A DNA stretch of 64,000 nucleotides from Candidatus Fermentithermobacillus carboniphilus (GTDB lineage: Bacteria > Bacillota > Sulfobacillia > Fermentithermobacillales > Fermentithermobacillaceae): the NCBI GenBank assembly GCA_018208355.1, contig CP062796.1:1768494-1832493 (forward strand), written 5' to 3'. How positions within the stretch are numbered: the stretch's first letter is position 1; each line of letters opens with the position of its first letter. The position numbers and the translations under genes are program-made. Under the pieces are notes generated by a model. The model saw nothing but the letters and a program-made list of their open reading frames with translations, searched no databases and was not told the origin of the DNA. This document shows, one piece after another, positions 7,528 through 14,465 of this stretch.

Positions 7528-8481
7528 GTGGATGTCGAAGAAATCCTGGAAGGGATAGAGGCAAAAAAACGGACCTACCTCGCCCGGGCGATATCGCTTG
7601 TGGAAGACGGTTCGCCTCTGGGTCGGGAAGTCGTAGCCCGGGCCTTCAAGTCTAAGAAAAACGCCAAGGTTTTGGGGATAACGGGAGCCCCGGGGGTCGG
7701 CAAGTCGACCCTCGTTGATGGGCTCATTGGAAAACTCCGTGAACGGGGAGGTTCGGTTGGGGTCATCGCCGTCGACCCCTCTTCTCCTTTCACGGGAGGG
7801 GCCATACTGGGTGACCGCGTGCGGATGCGCTCCCGGACGCTGGACGAAGGCGTGTTTTTCAGGAGCCTCGCGACCCGGGGGCACCTGGGAGGGCTTTCTC
7901 GCCACACGGCCGAGGTCATCGTGCTCATGGACGCATTCGGTTTCGACTATATCGTCGTTGAAACCGTCGGGGTCGGACAGTCTGAGGTCGACGTCATGAA
8001 ATACGCGCACTCTGTCGTGGTGGTGCTGGCCCCGGGCTTGGGTGACGACATCCAGGCCATCAAAGCGGGGATCCTGGAGATCGGGGATGTCCTGTGTGTC
8101 AACAAGGCCGACCTCCCGGGGGCAGAGCGCACCAGGAAGGAGCTTGAGATGATGCTTGGCCTCAAGGAATTTGAGGGTTGGAAACCTCCCGTCGTGGAGA
8201 CGATCGCGTCTTCCGGCGAGGGCCTGGACAGGCTGCTTGAGTCAGTCCTCCAGCACCAGGATTATCTGGTTGCGTCCGGGCTTTTGGAGAAGAAGGTGAG
8301 GGAGAGCCACCATGCCGTCCTCGTGGAATACGTCAAGCGCGAGACCTTGGACAAAATCATGGAAAAGGCCGAATCTGACGGCACCCTTGACCGAATCCTG
8401 AGAGATCTTGTGGAAGGGGCCGGCGATCCCGAAAGCGGGGCCAGGGCGCTCGTGGAAAAGTACTTCGGGACCACCATCTAA
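7528..8481 (+). CDS. meaB: Methylmalonyl-CoA mutase-associated GTPase MeaB
   Basis: G3E-family P-loop GTPase that guards loading and repair of the B12 cofactor of methylmalonyl-CoA mutase. The P-loop GAPGVGKST is at residues 53-61, followed by the AVDPSSPF switch I stretch, VETVGVGQSE and the NKAD base-recognition motif. Length 317 aa is normal. The start is GTG 7528, directly after mcmB; the only purine-rich site lies within the end of mcmB, suggesting translational coupling. It is the last gene of the operon; a 12-bp stem at 8568-8611 follows. Confidence 0.95.
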   Translation: MDVEEILEGIEAKKRTYLARAISLVEDGSPLGREVVARAFKSKKNAKVLGITGAPGVGKSTLVDGLIGKLRERGGSVGVIAVDPSSPFTGGAILGDRVRMRSRTLDEGVFFRSLATRGHLGGLSRHTAEVIVLMDAFGFDYIVVETVGVGQSEVDVMKYAHSVVVVLAPGLGDDIQAIKAGILEIGDVLCVNKADLPGAERTRKELEMMLGLKEFEGWKPPVVETIASSGEGLDRLLESVLQHQDYLVASGLLEKKVRESHHAVLVEYVKRETLDKIMEKAESDGTLDRILRDLVEGAGDPESGARALVEKYFGTTI

Positions 8482-8567
8482 AAGGGTCCGGGAGTATCGT
8501 ACGAGAACCAAGGATGCAAAAACTGAGGATACATGCAAAAGAGCTTAGGCGGTAATGACACGGTAGA

Positions 8568-8611
8568 AAGAAGGCCGGGGCAGGAGTCTTACCCGTAGTC
8601 CCGGCCTTCTT
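8568..8611. terminator. Inverted repeat between convergent meaB and oppF
   Basis: A perfect 12-bp stem (8568-8579 with 8600-8611) encloses a 20-base loop. It sits between two genes that end towards each other, so it probably stops transcription from both sides, but neither side has a clear T tract. The same layout recurs at other convergent junctions in the window. Confidence 0.6.
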
Positions 8612-8690
8612 ACGTCATTCAGCCGTCGCAGAGGCGAGAAACCTGGCGACGCCACCGCTTTCCCGGGCCGTAGGCGCGGGTGGGCGACTT

Positions 8691-9650
8691 TCAGCCGTAA
8701 AGGAAGCAAGAGACCCAGTGACCGGGCGATACCTCTCTAAGTTCAGGGTCTTCTTTGCGGCATCTTTCCATGGCTCGCACGCACCTGGATGCAAACCGGC
8801 AGCCGGGAGGCGGGTTGATAGGGCTCGGCACTTCCCCGGGCAGTACGATCCTGGAACGTTCGGATTCTACCTTTGGGTCAGGGATTGGGTTAGCCGACAT
8901 AAGGGCCTGGGTGTATGGATTCAGGGGCTCTTTGTAGATCTCTTCCGACGGGGCTATCTCTACTATCTTTCCGAGATACATGACAGCTACCCTGTGGGAT
9001 ATGTGGCGGACCATCGAAAGATCGTGGGCTATGAACATGAAAGTCAGCCCGCGCTCTTCCTGAAGGTTGGTCAGGAGGTTCACCACTTGAGCCTGGATCG
9101 AGACATCGAGAGAAGAAATGGGTTCGTCGGCTATGATGAACTCCGGGTCAACCGCAAGAGCCCTCGCTATACCGATCCTCTGTCTTTGCCCCCCCGAGAA
9201 CTCGTGTGGGAACCTATTTGCGTGTTCAGGATCCAGTCCCACGAGTTCGAGAAGGTACCGGATACGTTCAAGCCGTTCTTTTCCGGAGGCTATGTGGTGG
9301 ACGTCCATGGGCTCACCGATTATCTCTCCGACCGTCATCCTCGGGTCCAGCGATGCGTAAGGGTCCTGGAATATCATCTGAAGTTTCCTTCTGAACCAAA
9401 GAAGTTCGGATTCTTGAGCGTTGGTCACGTCGCGCCCTTCGAAGATGATGCTTCCGGAAGTGGGTTCATATAGCCTGGCTATGGTCCTGCCGAGGGTAGT
9501 CTTCCCGCAGCCGCTTTCGCCCACGACCCCGAGGACATGTCCTCTTTCCAGGCTAAAGCTGACGTTATCGACTGCTTTCAGGATCTTCCGGCGCCCTACC
9601 CGGAAGTACTTGGTCAAATTCTTGACCTCGAGGGTAACTTCGGCTGTCAT
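8691..9650 (-). CDS. oppF: Oligopeptide ABC transporter ATP-binding protein OppF
   Basis: One of the two ATPases of the peptide importer. Walker A is GESGCGKTT, the signature is [14 protein letters not shown], and Walker B ends IADEP; the C-terminal oligopeptide/dipeptide extension with CRFASRC and CRKEDPEL cysteines (an iron-sulfur-type Cys cluster in this family) is present. Length 319 aa is normal. The start overlaps the end of oppD by four bases. Last gene of the five-gene leftward opp operon. Confidence 0.93.
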
Positions 9651-10750
9651 AGGTCAAACCCCCCGTTCGTGTGGTCGCTCTTAGGCGGGTGAGGATTGTC
9701 TTTGTGCCAGAGCCAGCACGAGACCCGGTGACCCGGTTCGGTCTCTATCGGGTCGGCGTCGTGCTCGACGCAGATCCTCATAGTGTGCCTGCATCTAGGG
9801 GCGAAAGCGCAACCCCTTGGGGGCACGAACAAGTCCGGGGGTGTGCCTGGGATCGATTCGAGCCTGGTCCTTGTAGGTCTGTCCAGCCTCGGCACGGATT
9901 TCAAGAGGGCTCTTGTGTAGGGGTGCATCGCATTGTAGAATACTTGCGCTGAAGAACCTTTTTCCACAACTTTTCCCGCGTACATTACCACGATGTCTTT
10001 GGCCAGCCGGGCCACGACGCCAAGGTTATGGGTTATGAGGATGATAGTCATACCCAGTTTTTCCTGGAGCTCTTTCAGAAGGTCAAGGATCTGCGCCTGG
10101 ATAGTCACGTCAAGGGAGGTCGTGGGCTCGTCGGCGATCAGGAGGAGAGGTTCGCACGCCAGCGCCATGGCGATCATGGCCCTCTGCCTCATGCCCCCGC
10201 TGAACTGATGAGGGTACTGGGTAGCCCGGACGGCTGGATTCGGGATCTCTACCATGTTGAGCATCTCCACGGCTTTCTCCCACGCGGCTCTCCTGGACAG
10301 TCGCTGGTGTTTGATGAGGGCCTCCACGATCTGGTTGCCGACCGTCATCGTTGGGTTCAAGCCCGTCATGGGATCCTGAAAGATCATGCCGATTTCTTTG
10401 CCTCTTACAGACTGCATTTCTCTTTCTGAAAGGGACAGGATGTCTTTGCCGTTGAAAAAGATCTTACCGCCTTTGATCTCCCCAGGAGGTATAGGGGTGA
10501 GACGCATTACTGCCTGAGCGGTAACGGTCTTACCGCAACCCGACTCACCCACCACCGCCAGGGAACCGCCCCGCTCAACCGAGTATGAGACTCCGCGGAC
10601 GGCATGCACCTCGCCGGCGTACGTATGGAAGGAGACCTGGAGGTCTTCTATGGAAAGGAGCGTAGAGCGCGAGGAGGCGAGGTCCTGGCGTTTTTTAGCT
10701 TGGATCAGATCCCTGGTCTGTTCTCCCCTGTTATCGTGCACTGCTTCCAT
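9647..10750 (-). CDS. oppD: Oligopeptide ABC transporter ATP-binding protein OppD
   Basis: The second ATPase of the importer (367 aa). Walker A is GESGCGKTV, the signature is [14 protein letters not shown], and the C-terminal Cys-rich extension [11 protein letters not shown] is present. The first 25 or so residues are a charged tail longer than usual. The ATG at 10750 has GGGAGG eight bases upstream, so the long N terminus appears real. It is 15 bases from oppC and overlaps oppF, consistent with one transcript. Confidence 0.93.
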
Positions 10751-10765
10751 GAGACACGCGCCTCC

Positions 10766-11689
10766 CTACTGCCTGAGCCTTGGATCGAGAGCGTCTCTCA
10801 ATCCATCGCCGACGAAGTTAAATGAGAGTATGAGCAAGATTATCGTCAGAGCCGGGATAATGACGTTGTGGGGATATACCAGAAGTACCTGATAGCCTTC
10901 GTTTGCCAGAGTTCCCAGGCTCGCCAGTGGCATCGGGACTCCCAGCCCTATGAAGCTGAGGAAGGCCTCCCCGAATATCGCTCCGGGGATCGACATGGTG
11001 AGGCTCACCAGGACCACGCCCATGGTGTTGGGCACGAGATGGCGGGCGATGATCCGCCGGGGCGAAGCGCCCACAGAACGGGCGGCAAGGACGTACTCCA
11101 TTTCCTTGAGCTGGAGGATTTGTCCTCTCACCAGCCTGGCCATGCCGGTCCAGCCAGTCAGGCTCATGGCCAGGATGATGGTCCAGAGCCCTGGTTCCAT
11201 GACGACGAGCAGCAGGATGACCACCAGAAGGTAGGGGATGCCGTATAGGATGTCCACTATGCGCATCATGATGTCGTCGACGAGCCCGCCAAAATACCCG
11301 GAAATCCCGCCCCAAACCACGCCGATGCACAAATCGAGTAGAGCGGCGGTTATCCCGATGAATATGGAGATCCTGGTTCCGAACCAAAGACGCGTGAACA
11401 TGTCTCTCCCCAGGTAGTCAGTGCCGAACCAGTGCCGGGCGCTTATGAATTCATTTATGTGGTTGTAATCGCACTCTCTGTAGTCCCAGGGGGAGATTAT
11501 GGGACCGATGATGGCCATGAAGGTCAAGATGGCGAGGACCGTCAAGCCGGTGAGCGCCAGCCGGTTCTTCTTGAAGCGCATCCACACGTCCTGCCAGTAA
11601 CTGATATGGGGTCTCGTTATGGCTTCCCCTTCGCGCTGGTCTAGAGAAATAGGTTCGAAGTCGGAGGGTTTGAGGTTCATCTCGAGCAC
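10766..11689 (-). CDS. oppC: Oligopeptide ABC transporter permease OppC
   Basis: Inner-membrane permease subunit, 307 aa, with an N-terminal cytoplasmic segment, a first membrane helix around residues 40-60 and the binding-protein-dependent transport domain after it. The EAA loop is recognisable as the stretch around AARSVGASPRRIIARHL, which contacts the ATPases. The GTG start at 11689 lies just after the oppB stop and uses GGGAGG inside the oppB 3' end, implying coupled translation. Confidence 0.92.
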   Translation of the reverse strand: MLEMNLKPSDFEPISLDQREGEAITRPHISYWQDVWMRFKKNRLALTGLTVLAILTFMAIIGPIISPWDYRECDYNHINEFISARHWFGTDYLGRDMFTRLWFGTRISIFIGITAALLDLCIGVVWGGISGYFGGLVDDIMMRIVDILYGIPYLLVVILLLVVMEPGLWTIILAMSLTGWTGMARLVRGQILQLKEMEYVLAARSVGASPRRIIARHLVPNTMGVVLVSLTMSIPGAIFGEAFLSFIGLGVPMPLASLGTLANEGYQVLLVYPHNVIIPALTIILLILSFNFVGDGLRDALDPRLRQ

Positions 11690-11690
11690 G

Positions 11691-12617
11691 TCAATCCCTC
11701 CCTTTCACCAGGCGGATCCTTGGATCTACGATCGCGTATGTTATGTCTACGAGGAAAGTCATGAGCAAGAGAATGGCTGCATAGAACACGGTTGTCCCCA
11801 TGATGAGGGGATAGTCCCTATTGTAGATACTTTCGACGAAATACCTACCGAGGCCCGGTATCCCGAACATCCTTTCAACCACCAAAGTCCCCGTGGTTAT
11901 ATTGGCGATAAGTGGCCCCAGGATGGTGACTATGGGCAGTATTGCGTTGCGGATGCAGTGGCGCCAGGTCACCTGGACAGGTGAAAGGCCCTTGGCTTTG
12001 GCCGTCCTGATATAATCCTGGTTGACGACTTCCAGCATGCTAGATCTCATCATTCTCGCCATGGTCGCCAACGTCCCCAGGCCCAGAGAAAAGGCGGGCA
12101 GGATGTGGTATTTGGGGCCTTCCCACCTCGCTATGGGCAATATCTTCAATTTTGCTCCCAAAATGTACTGGAGCGTCGAGGCTACCACGAAGTTGGGCAC
12201 GGAAACTCCGATGATCGCTATGATTATGGCGATGTAGTCTATGGTTCTCCCCCGATAGAGGGCTGCTATGATCCCGAGGGCGAGCCCGGTAGTGACCGCG
12301 AAGCAAAGAGCCTCAATCCCCACGACCAGCGATACCGGAAAGCAGCTCTTTATGATCGAGTTGACGCTCCTACCGCGTTCCCTGATTGATATCCCGAGGT
12401 CAAACCGTAAGAGGTTCTTAAGATAGGTTAGATACTGTTCCCACTTGGGCCTGTCTAAGTTGTACTTGCGCTCGAGCTGTTTCAGCACCTGAGGAGTGAG
12501 TTTTGCGCTGGAAAACGGGTTTCCCGGCACGACGTTCATGAGTATGAATGTTATGGTAACGATAACCCAGAGCGACAGGACCATGAAACCAAATCTTCTC
12601 AAAATATACCTTAACAC
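11691..12617 (-). CDS. oppB: Oligopeptide ABC transporter permease OppB
   Basis: Second permease, 308 aa, beginning LRYILRRFG as OppB proteins typically do and containing six membrane segments. The EAA motif region reads TAKAKGLSPVQVTWRH. The GTG start is preceded by GGGAGCGAGG. Between oppA and oppB lies a strong 13-bp hairpin, so oppB and the genes after it may be expressed at a lower level than oppA. Confidence 0.92.
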   Translation of the reverse strand: MLRYILRRFGFMVLSLWVIVTITFILMNVVPGNPFSSAKLTPQVLKQLERKYNLDRPKWEQYLTYLKNLLRFDLGISIRERGRSVNSIIKSCFPVSLVVGIEALCFAVTTGLALGIIAALYRGRTIDYIAIIIAIIGVSVPNFVVASTLQYILGAKLKILPIARWEGPKYHILPAFSLGLGTLATMARMMRSSMLEVVNQDYIRTAKAKGLSPVQVTWRHCIRNAILPIVTILGPLIANITTGTLVVERMFGIPGLGRYFVESIYNRDYPLIMGTTVFYAAILLLMTFLVDITYAIVDPRIRLVKGRD

Positions 12618-12755: not shown

Positions 12756-14465
12756 TTACTTCTGCTTAGGCAAAGCGTAACCCAGTTGTTTCAACGACTC
12801 TTTCAGAAGTTTCTGGGCTTCCTGCGGATTTCCAGTCGCAGGCAGGATATTGCCGATGTACTTGTCGTGGAAGGATTCGGTGGCATCTTTGCCTGCGATT
12901 GACGGAGGAGTAAGCCCTGTCGCCGGCTTGGAATAGTTCCTGAGTACGTTGTCGCAGTACGCCTGCCTATCAATTGCCATGGAGAGGGCTTTTCGGAACT
13001 TGGGATCCTTGAGTACCGGATGGTTCAAGTTGCACTCCAGATACCAGGCCACGGCTTCGGCCATCTGGTGGAACTCCTGCGGCCGTTCTTTCTGGAACTT
13101 GGGTATGAAGTCTCCGGGCACACCGATGGCGTCCAGCTGGTTAGCCTCATACATGCTGATTGGCGTGTTGATGTCCTTGATCATGTCGAACTGGATGTAC
13201 TCGAGCTTGACATTCTTGGCATCCCAGTAATTGGGATTCTTTTTGAGGACCATCTTGCTGCCATGCTCCCACTGGTCGATTACGAAAGGCCCGCAGAAGA
13301 GCATCTTGTCTTTCTCGGTCGCGTACTTGTCTCCCCACTTCTCGTGGGCTTTCTGGTTGAGCGGGAAGTAGGTCGGGAACGCGGTGAGGCTGATGAATAT
13401 GTTGTTCTTGGCGACGAGTTCGACTTCGAGGGTCAGGTCGTCGACGGCCTTGACGCCCATCTTGTCCATTGCGGCCTGGATGGCAGCTTCGGCCTCTTTG
13501 TACTTGGCGGGTTCTTTCTCCTTGTCGGGGAGCTGGATGTTGGCTACGTCTTCAGCACCTTTGATGTAGAAAAGCATGTAGTTGTACTGAGAAGCGGTCC
13601 TGGGGTCGACGGCCTTCTTCCAGGCATACTCGAAATCGTGGGCGGTAAGCGGGGTTCCGTCAGACCATTTTAGACCTTTCTTAAGCTTGAAGGTATACTT
13701 GGTCCCATCCTCCGAGACGGTCCAGCTTTCGGCAAGGCCGGAGCCCTGCTTGTACTGACCGTCGGGTCCGAGCCTGACGAGACCTTCGAGACATGCGTTG
13801 AGGACATCAAATGAAACCGTGTCGGTGGTGGTTATCGACTGCAGATCCGGGGGTTCTTCGCCCAGGTTGAGGTTGAGATGCTGCGGATCGTCTCCGCCGG
13901 GACGTCCTTCAGTGTACGCGAATTTCCAGTCGTTACCCGGTCCAATGGCGGTACGGATGATGCCCTTGACCCACGGATGTTCCGCGTAGTTCCGCTGAGG
14001 CCAGTAGATGGGGATGATGGGCAGCTCTTCCAGCAGGATCTTTTCTGCCTGAGCCATGAGGTTCATGCGCTCTGCCTGGTCACCCGACGCCTTTGCCTTC
14101 GCAATGAGATCGTCGTACTGTTTGTTGGACCATTTCACGTCGTTGTACGGGGAATTCGTGGTCCACATGTCGAGGAACGTCATGGGGTCGTTATAGTCGG
14201 CGGCCCAACCGGCCATGACTATGGCGAAGTCGCCGTCCCTCATCTTCTGGAGTCTTGTCTTGAAGTCGACGTTCTCCAGGGTGAGCTCAATGCCCAATCC
14301 CTTCCTGACGATTTCCTGCAGGCCCATTGCGTACTTCTTGGCGACTTCGCTATCTCCGCTCAGGAACTTGATCGGAGGCAGCGGTTGCCCGGGTGAGCAG
14401 CCGGCGACCAAGGAAAGCAGCAACAAGCCGCAGACCAGTGCCGAAAACCACTTCTTGAATCGCAT
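12756..14465 (-). CDS. oppA: Oligopeptide-binding lipoprotein OppA, circularly permuted
   Basis: Substrate-binding protein of the peptide importer (SBP_bac_5, cluster C), 569 aa. A lipoprotein signal ends in LVAGC with the lipid-anchor Cys at 23. The order of the rest is unusual. Residues 30-187 contain the segment that normally ends the family (GWAADYNDPMTFLD, the EELPIIPIYW region, and a terminal FAYTEGR). The normal N-terminal start, LNLNLGEEPP, only comes at 196, followed by KWSDGTPLTAHDF, NPNYWDAKNV and AIDRQAY. The protein ends LGYALPKQK, exactly where a normal OppA would continue into the segment that here sits at residue 29 (PLPPIKFL). So nothing is duplicated or missing; the chain is permuted with a break inside the last domain. 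ATG 14465 has a GGGAGGGGG site. First gene of the opp operon. Confidence 0.88.
   Translation of the reverse strand: MRFKKWFSALVCGLLLLSLVAGCSPGQPLPPIKFLSGDSEVAKKYAMGLQEIVRKGLGIELTLENVDFKTRLQKMRDGDFAIVMAGWAADYNDPMTFLDMWTTNSPYNDVKWSNKQYDDLIAKAKASGDQAERMNLMAQAEKILLEELPIIPIYWPQRNYAEHPWVKGIIRTAIGPGNDWKFAYTEGRPGGDDPQHLNLNLGEEPPDLQSITTTDTVSFDVLNACLEGLVRLGPDGQYKQGSGLAESWTVSEDGTKYTFKLKKGLKWSDGTPLTAHDFEYAWKKAVDPRTASQYNYMLFYIKGAEDVANIQLPDKEKEPAKYKEAEAAIQAAMDKMGVKAVDDLTLEVELVAKNNIFISLTAFPTYFPLNQKAHEKWGDKYATEKDKMLFCGPFVIDQWEHGSKMVLKKNPNYWDAKNVKLEYIQFDMIKDINTPISMYEANQLDAIGVPGDFIPKFQKERPQEFHQMAEAVAWYLECNLNHPVLKDPKFRKALSMAIDRQAYCDNVLRNYSKPATGLTPPSIAGKDATESFHDKYIGNILPATGNPQEAQKLLKESLKQLGYALPKQK

Follow-up and report, generated by a model that had tools for sequence, protein, structure and literature searches.

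The window analysed here, a stretch of 64,000 nucleotides from the genome of Candidatus Fermentithermobacillus carboniphilus, carries a complete oppABCDF operon that is headed by a gene for an OppA-type lipoprotein (Table 1). Cluster C proteins, to which OppA belongs, are the peptide receptors of Opp/Dpp importers. The 569-aa product has a lipoprotein signal, with the lipobox LVAGC at residues 19 to 23 and its cysteine at position 23, and it belongs to the SBP_bac_5 family (PF00496), which Pfam recognizes with 294 bits against a cut-off of 32.4, distributed over two stretches of the protein.

Table 1. Features of the opp operon and of the permuted oppA gene (positions within the window)
Feature	Position	Strand	Basis
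Permuted oppA, peptide-binding lipoprotein, 569 aa	12756..14465	-	ORF with ATG start, Pfam, phmmer, doubled-sequence alignment
Signal peptide and lipobox, residues 1-23 (LVAG|C23)	14397..14465	-	Read from sequence
Native C-terminal segment of OppA, placed first, residues 29-187	13905..14381	-	Corresponds to 6npo 383-543
W87-A-A-D90, counterpart of the W..D motif (AliD W498/D501)	14196..14207	-	A3 alignment, PMC11192437
Linker from native C terminus to native N terminus, residues 188-196, PGGDDPQH region	13878..13904	-	Alignment with normal-order L028
Native N-terminal and middle part of OppA, placed last, residues 197-569	12759..13877	-	Corresponds to 6npo 36-379
oppB permease	11691..12617	-	PF00528, synteny
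oppC permease	10766..11689	-	PF00528 and PF12911 OppC_N
oppD ATPase	9647..10750	-	PF00005 and PF08352 oligo_HPY
oppF ATPase	8691..9650	-	PF00005 and PF08352 oligo_HPY

The segments of this protein do not follow the canonical N-to-C order, as the C-terminal segment comes first. When the protein was compared by phmmer with OppA of B. anthracis (6npo), residues 197 to 561 matched chain residues 36 to 379 and residues 29 to 185 matched chain residues 383 to 543; the order of the two blocks is inverted, and just 3 chain residues separate them. The same inversion was obtained with 5kzt and 8are. Residues 29 to 187 correspond to a C-terminal portion of domain III plus the last strands of domain I, and residues 197 to 569 cover SBP_bac_5 profile positions 5 to 278 of 368 and end at the loop LKQLGYALPKQK, and homology to all three domains (I, II, and III) of 6npo is present. 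Against the normal-order protein L025, the sequence as written gave two out-of-order matches, whereas the doubled sequence gave a single match of 537 columns with 50.7% identity (E value of 7e-175) to L025 residues 46 to 565. This is the outcome expected for a circular permutation, and with a normal OppA, rotation or doubling resulted in one full-length match at 50 to 51% identity (E value of about 1e-175). Based on these alignments, the 569-aa lipoprotein is a circularly permuted but complete OppA of cluster C (SBP_bac_5), and by the same evidence it is a permuted variant and not a canonical member of its family. The initial annotation of the window had placed first the segment that normally ends OppA and had named an uninterrupted match for the doubled sequence as the proof of permutation, and both points were borne out. 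That the first 160 residues belong to a different family was ruled out, as they match the C-terminal segments of OppA with E values of about 1e-24 to 1e-26.

The new ends lie at the surface, in a domain III loop that follows the helix ending in ..LKELG(Y) and precedes the strand that begins LPxIxFL. In the window protein, the new N terminus is found a few residues ahead of the strand LPPIKFLSGD and the new C terminus directly after the helix ending LKQLGY; in normal-order relatives these segments are contiguous (examples are KELGLTKAPQISFLSGD and KELGLSKLPTISFLSGD). The residues LP are found at both new ends, in ...LGYALPKQK at the C terminus and in ...QPLPPIKFL at the N terminus, and only once in normal relatives (for example, ELGLSKLPTISFLSGD), so an overlap of 2 to 3 residues is possible. 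A linker of about 9 residues connects the native ends, at FAYTEGRPGGDDPQHLNLNLGEEPP. In normal order, the protein L028 ends with WKWAYTQGRPNS (stop) and starts with QNQYLNLNLGEEPP, its chain after the tether beginning QNQYLNLNLGEEPPSLDPG, and the permuteins L125 and L126 read WKWAYTEGRPGGD..QYLNLNLGEEPP across the junction (also given as WKWAYTEGRPGGD..QYLNLNLGEEPPDLDPQ). This comparison indicates that almost none of the fold is lost and that one copy's signal peptide and tether are what is missing. The initial annotation had the ends matching without loss or duplication, which is approximately correct if the possible overlap and the linker are allowed for; it was also right to take LNLNLGEEPP as the normal OppA start, which begins at residue 197 and not, as it had stated, at 196. 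In AliD, domain I consists of residues 29 to 63, 191 to 296, and 583 to 617, and domain III of residues 297 to 582 (PMC11192437). By homology to AliD, both native termini would be located in domain I, in agreement with the earlier proposal that they lie in one domain, and the cut would fall inside domain III.

A search of relatives found the order of the window OppA in three more family groups (f149, f87, and f131) and, at 62 to 73% identity and on contigs from separate assemblies, in 10 other genomes that belong to its own family and order. The 10 genomes include members of the same family (G002, G006, G007, G009, G010, G012, and G013), G014 and G015 from the other family of the order, and G004, which has a truncated copy only. 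In G004 the permuted oppA (L050/L186, 2687-4045, reverse strand) lacks about the first 117 residues and the downstream oppBCD(F) genes are intact; this shortening may be a truncation or an assembly fault. The dN/dS ratio is 0.05 to 0.11 for close pairs and 0.17 for the window gene versus L022, and throughout two families of its order permuted oppA has remained open, with strong purifying selection acting on it. These ratios rule out a pseudogene. The order oppA-oppB-oppC-oppD-oppF is common to permuted (L044-L049 and L051) and normal-order (L055, L188, and L190) relatives, which indicates that the permutein is the orthologue in its usual operon slot. It is also the only clear OppA of its own genome, where the next-best match to it reaches 80 bits versus 1331. 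The W..D motif, which binds the peptide amino group in AliD and AliB (PMC11192437), is invariant across the permuted alignment (W64 and D67 in A3) and corresponds to W87 and D90 in the window protein.

Several of the relatives are MAGs, and one could suppose that two OppA fragments were joined in the wrong order by an assembly error or in a binning chimera. We see virtually no room for this, as at least 10 other genomes of the group have identical breakpoints, also on long contigs that had been polished (L048), the genome of the window is one 2.3-Mb contig, dN/dS is far below 1, and an isolate genome, that of Romboutsia timonensis, has permuted OppAs with a different cut; the independent recurrence of the permuted order rules out an assembly artefact. 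It is also conceivable that the permutein has lost its role in transport and is now a peptide sensor or scavenger lipoprotein, as two Romboutsia permuteins (L080 and L085) have no adjoining permease genes. For the window clade we consider this improbable: its gene heads an intact, conserved oppBCDF operon, the genome contains no other clear OppA, and the W..D peptide anchor is retained. The operon slot, the lack of another clear OppA, the dN/dS values, and the conserved W..D motif together make peptide reception for OppBCDF the best reading, which is inferred, as there are no binding or transport data. We are confident that the window protein is the working substrate-binding lipoprotein of an OppABCDF importer and a natural circular permutation of the OppA fold. 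The functional permutein of the initial annotation, with the signal peptide now in front of a new start within the last domain, is supported by the sequence, by independent genomes, by purifying selection, and by the operon context.

Any circular permutation joins the native C terminus to the native N terminus, and a profile of this junction should therefore find all permuteins; two such profiles were used. Matches to the OppA-type profile (A1) were bimodal, with spanning matches of at least 293 bits and, well apart from these, half matches that reach about 200 bits at most and come from normal-order proteins. Spanning matches were present in 10 of 398 genomes of the phylum; within the class they were confined to f1 and f2. 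The family of Romboutsia had 47 of them in 20 of its 71 genomes, with up to seven per genome (one at 224 bits and the others at 287 or more), and in the isolate R. timonensis all four OppA-like matches are permuted, intact copies. The cut in the Peptostreptococcaceae lies immediately ahead of ARKAIAMAIDK, where domain III begins, and differs from that of the window OppA. OppA-like proteins permuted at this cut are L249-L267 and the products of the R. timonensis genes L080 (5893-7533) and L085 (5701-7275); neither of these two genes has opp permease neighbours. The DppA-type profile (A2) resulted in many more spanning matches in class and phylum. A second permuted binding protein is found in the genome of the window itself (L011, 3528-5204, reverse strand, near G000:C1 249262-250071); it is DppA-like, about 27% identical, has the same cut as the window OppA, and has its own oppB/C/D neighbours. 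The permutation is part of a recurrent and widespread pattern in cluster C proteins.

To count origins, trees were built after rotating the permuted sequences into normal order. The OppA-like tree (80 rows) has exactly 3 changes of order, all forced (3 to 4 in the bootstrap), namely, in the window clade, in L051/L278, and in the Peptostreptococcaceae; in the combined tree, 8 changes are needed to account for the permuted state, and starred branches force at least 6 of them. Forcing the two OppA groups with the same cut together was rejected (lnL difference of 71; AU p = 0.0048), a p value that is somewhat optimistic because the groups were named after inspection of the tree. The OppA-like proteins acquired the permuted order on at least three occasions, twice with the cut of the window protein and once with another. 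The initial annotation had treated the window protein as a single oddity; the trees and the AU test make it one of several independent events. The window clade (f1 and f2 with f149, f87, and f131) is monophyletic in the OppA-like tree with weak support (44/25), so the number of origins inside it may be higher, and the number of DppA-like origins is uncertain, as normal-order proteins are thinly sampled in that part of the combined tree. One normal-order protein, L239 (G405), is placed inside a permuted DppA-like clade in a quick tree, which may reflect a reversion, an independent permutation, or a tree error.

This placement, and the identical cut of many permuteins, would also fit a single ancient permutation for all cases with repeated reversion to normal order. 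That reading is very hard to maintain against the forced changes in both trees, the rejected union of the two cut-I OppA groups, and the other cut of the Peptostreptococcaceae, and each reversion would demand the same multi-step rearrangement. Regarding the route, the simplest series of steps, which is plausible but inferred, is tandem duplication followed by trimming, as the initial annotation had proposed. After duplication of oppA, the C-terminal part of the first copy (C1) would be fused in frame to the N-terminal part of the second (N2), and N1 and the terminal C2 segment would then be lost, so that the signal peptide and lipobox of the first copy end up beside the domain III loop. A close normal-order relative (L053, Thermoanaerobacter wiegelii) has tandem normal-order oppA copies ahead of oppBCDF, which could be the raw material for this route; the second of these copies (8239-9755) is split across frames. 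It is possible that the C-terminal segment was instead translocated behind the signal peptide within one gene, or that the gene was split and re-fused in reverse order, since a one-step move of the segment would give an identical sequence and no duplicated intermediate (an N-C-N-C fusion) was found among all classified ORFs, which have only the orders NC, CN, and NCN (cut II). We rather doubt these other routes. Tandem OppA copies are common in relatives (L053, and L054, L058, L064, and L075 in the trees), fusion of the C end of an upstream copy to the N end of a downstream copy gives the observed junction directly, and the possible overlap of the new ends fits, weakly, with trimming of two copies.

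The permuted chain would be expected to fold into the usual three-domain Venus flytrap, although closure of the first 160 residues is unproven, and to bind peptides through the retained W..D anchor before handing them over to OppB/OppC. AlphaFold gave only a weak model of the window protein, with just 9 permuted sequences in the alignment (pLDDT of 67.3; pTM of 0.50), in which only residues 158 to 546 align with OppA/DppE structures (Z of about 25 with 8azb and 6npo; Z of 24.7 for residues 166 to 546 against 6npo). For a Romboutsia protein, with just 2 alignment rows, the model was useless (pLDDT of 39). For either junction profile, no permuted PDB chain was present among the 60 best matches that were listed; in these, the best stretch does not cross the native C/N join, and where there is a second stretch it stands apart. 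Should the chain keep the usual fold, its lipid anchor would leave from lobe 2 (domain III) and not from lobe 1 (domain I).

With the OppA/DppE-type proteins (cluster C, PF00496; 6npo, 8are, and 5kzt), the window protein shares all homologous segments, the lipobox, the W..D anchor, and the oppABCDF slot, and after rotation it is about 50% identical to normal-order relatives; it differs in that its chain starts in domain III and the native ends are fused. We found no permuted OppA, DppA, or SBP_bac_5 protein, or any other cluster C permutein, in the literature, of which most subscription journals were not covered. The closest precedent is TpMglB-2 (Tp0684) of Treponema pallidum, a circularly permuted glucose-binding lipoprotein of "cluster Bc" that has kept ligand binding and closure and whose permuted form is widespread in relatives (PMC4990184). 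Both are naturally permuted binding lipoproteins of ABC importers. However, TpMglB-2 is a cluster B sugar binder with an unrelated cut (in the N lobe) and an extra hinge crossing, whereas the permuteins described here are peptide-binding proteins of cluster C that arose several times independently and are cut at either of two sites. The window protein is not a member of cluster Bc, as its sequence is that of cluster C and not of the sugar-binding fold with strand order 5-4-6-1-2-3. It is a genuine natural permutein, and natural permutation of a binding protein was already known in cluster B. In the domain-swapped dimer of AliC, lobe connectivity of a cluster C protein is also rearranged with unaltered lobe architecture, but this is a three-dimensional swap of normal-order chains, and the gene order is unchanged (PMC11192437).

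The repeated cutting and rejoining at defined loops shows which ends the cluster C fold tolerates, and the natural pairs of permuted and normal proteins with about 50% identity may be used to test what influence the connectivity of the lobes and the position of the tether have on closure, on ligand affinity, and on docking to the permease. As profile tools give two partial matches in swapped order, permuteins can be misannotated as fragments. It is tempting to speculate, although we would not expect it to hold, that permutation of cluster C binding proteins at the domain III loop is a repeatable, selected outcome. The move of ends and membrane attachment from lobe 1 to lobe 2 would then usefully change closing dynamics or presentation to OppB/OppC, so that normal forms give way to permuted ones, which afterwards expand, the Peptostreptococcaceae being an example. 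In E. coli, the scoop motif of DppB touches DppA on both of its lobes (PMC12136057), so docking might be sensitive to a changed point of attachment. Tethering was suggested as a reason for the permutation by the authors of the TpMglB-2 study (PMC4990184). The OppA permuteins of f149, f87, and f131 have no lipobox, which indicates that lipid tethering is not the whole or general cause. These proteins (L125-L132) have an AxA-KPLP signal, and in their mature chain the first strand of the cut domain would follow almost directly on the N terminus. Another permuted binding protein (L185, 1271-3235, forward strand, in G017) has a C-terminal transmembrane segment and a basic tail (..FIGGLVVGAVLTLAILIFGRRRAPAVNA), and there the anchor may sit at the new C terminus.
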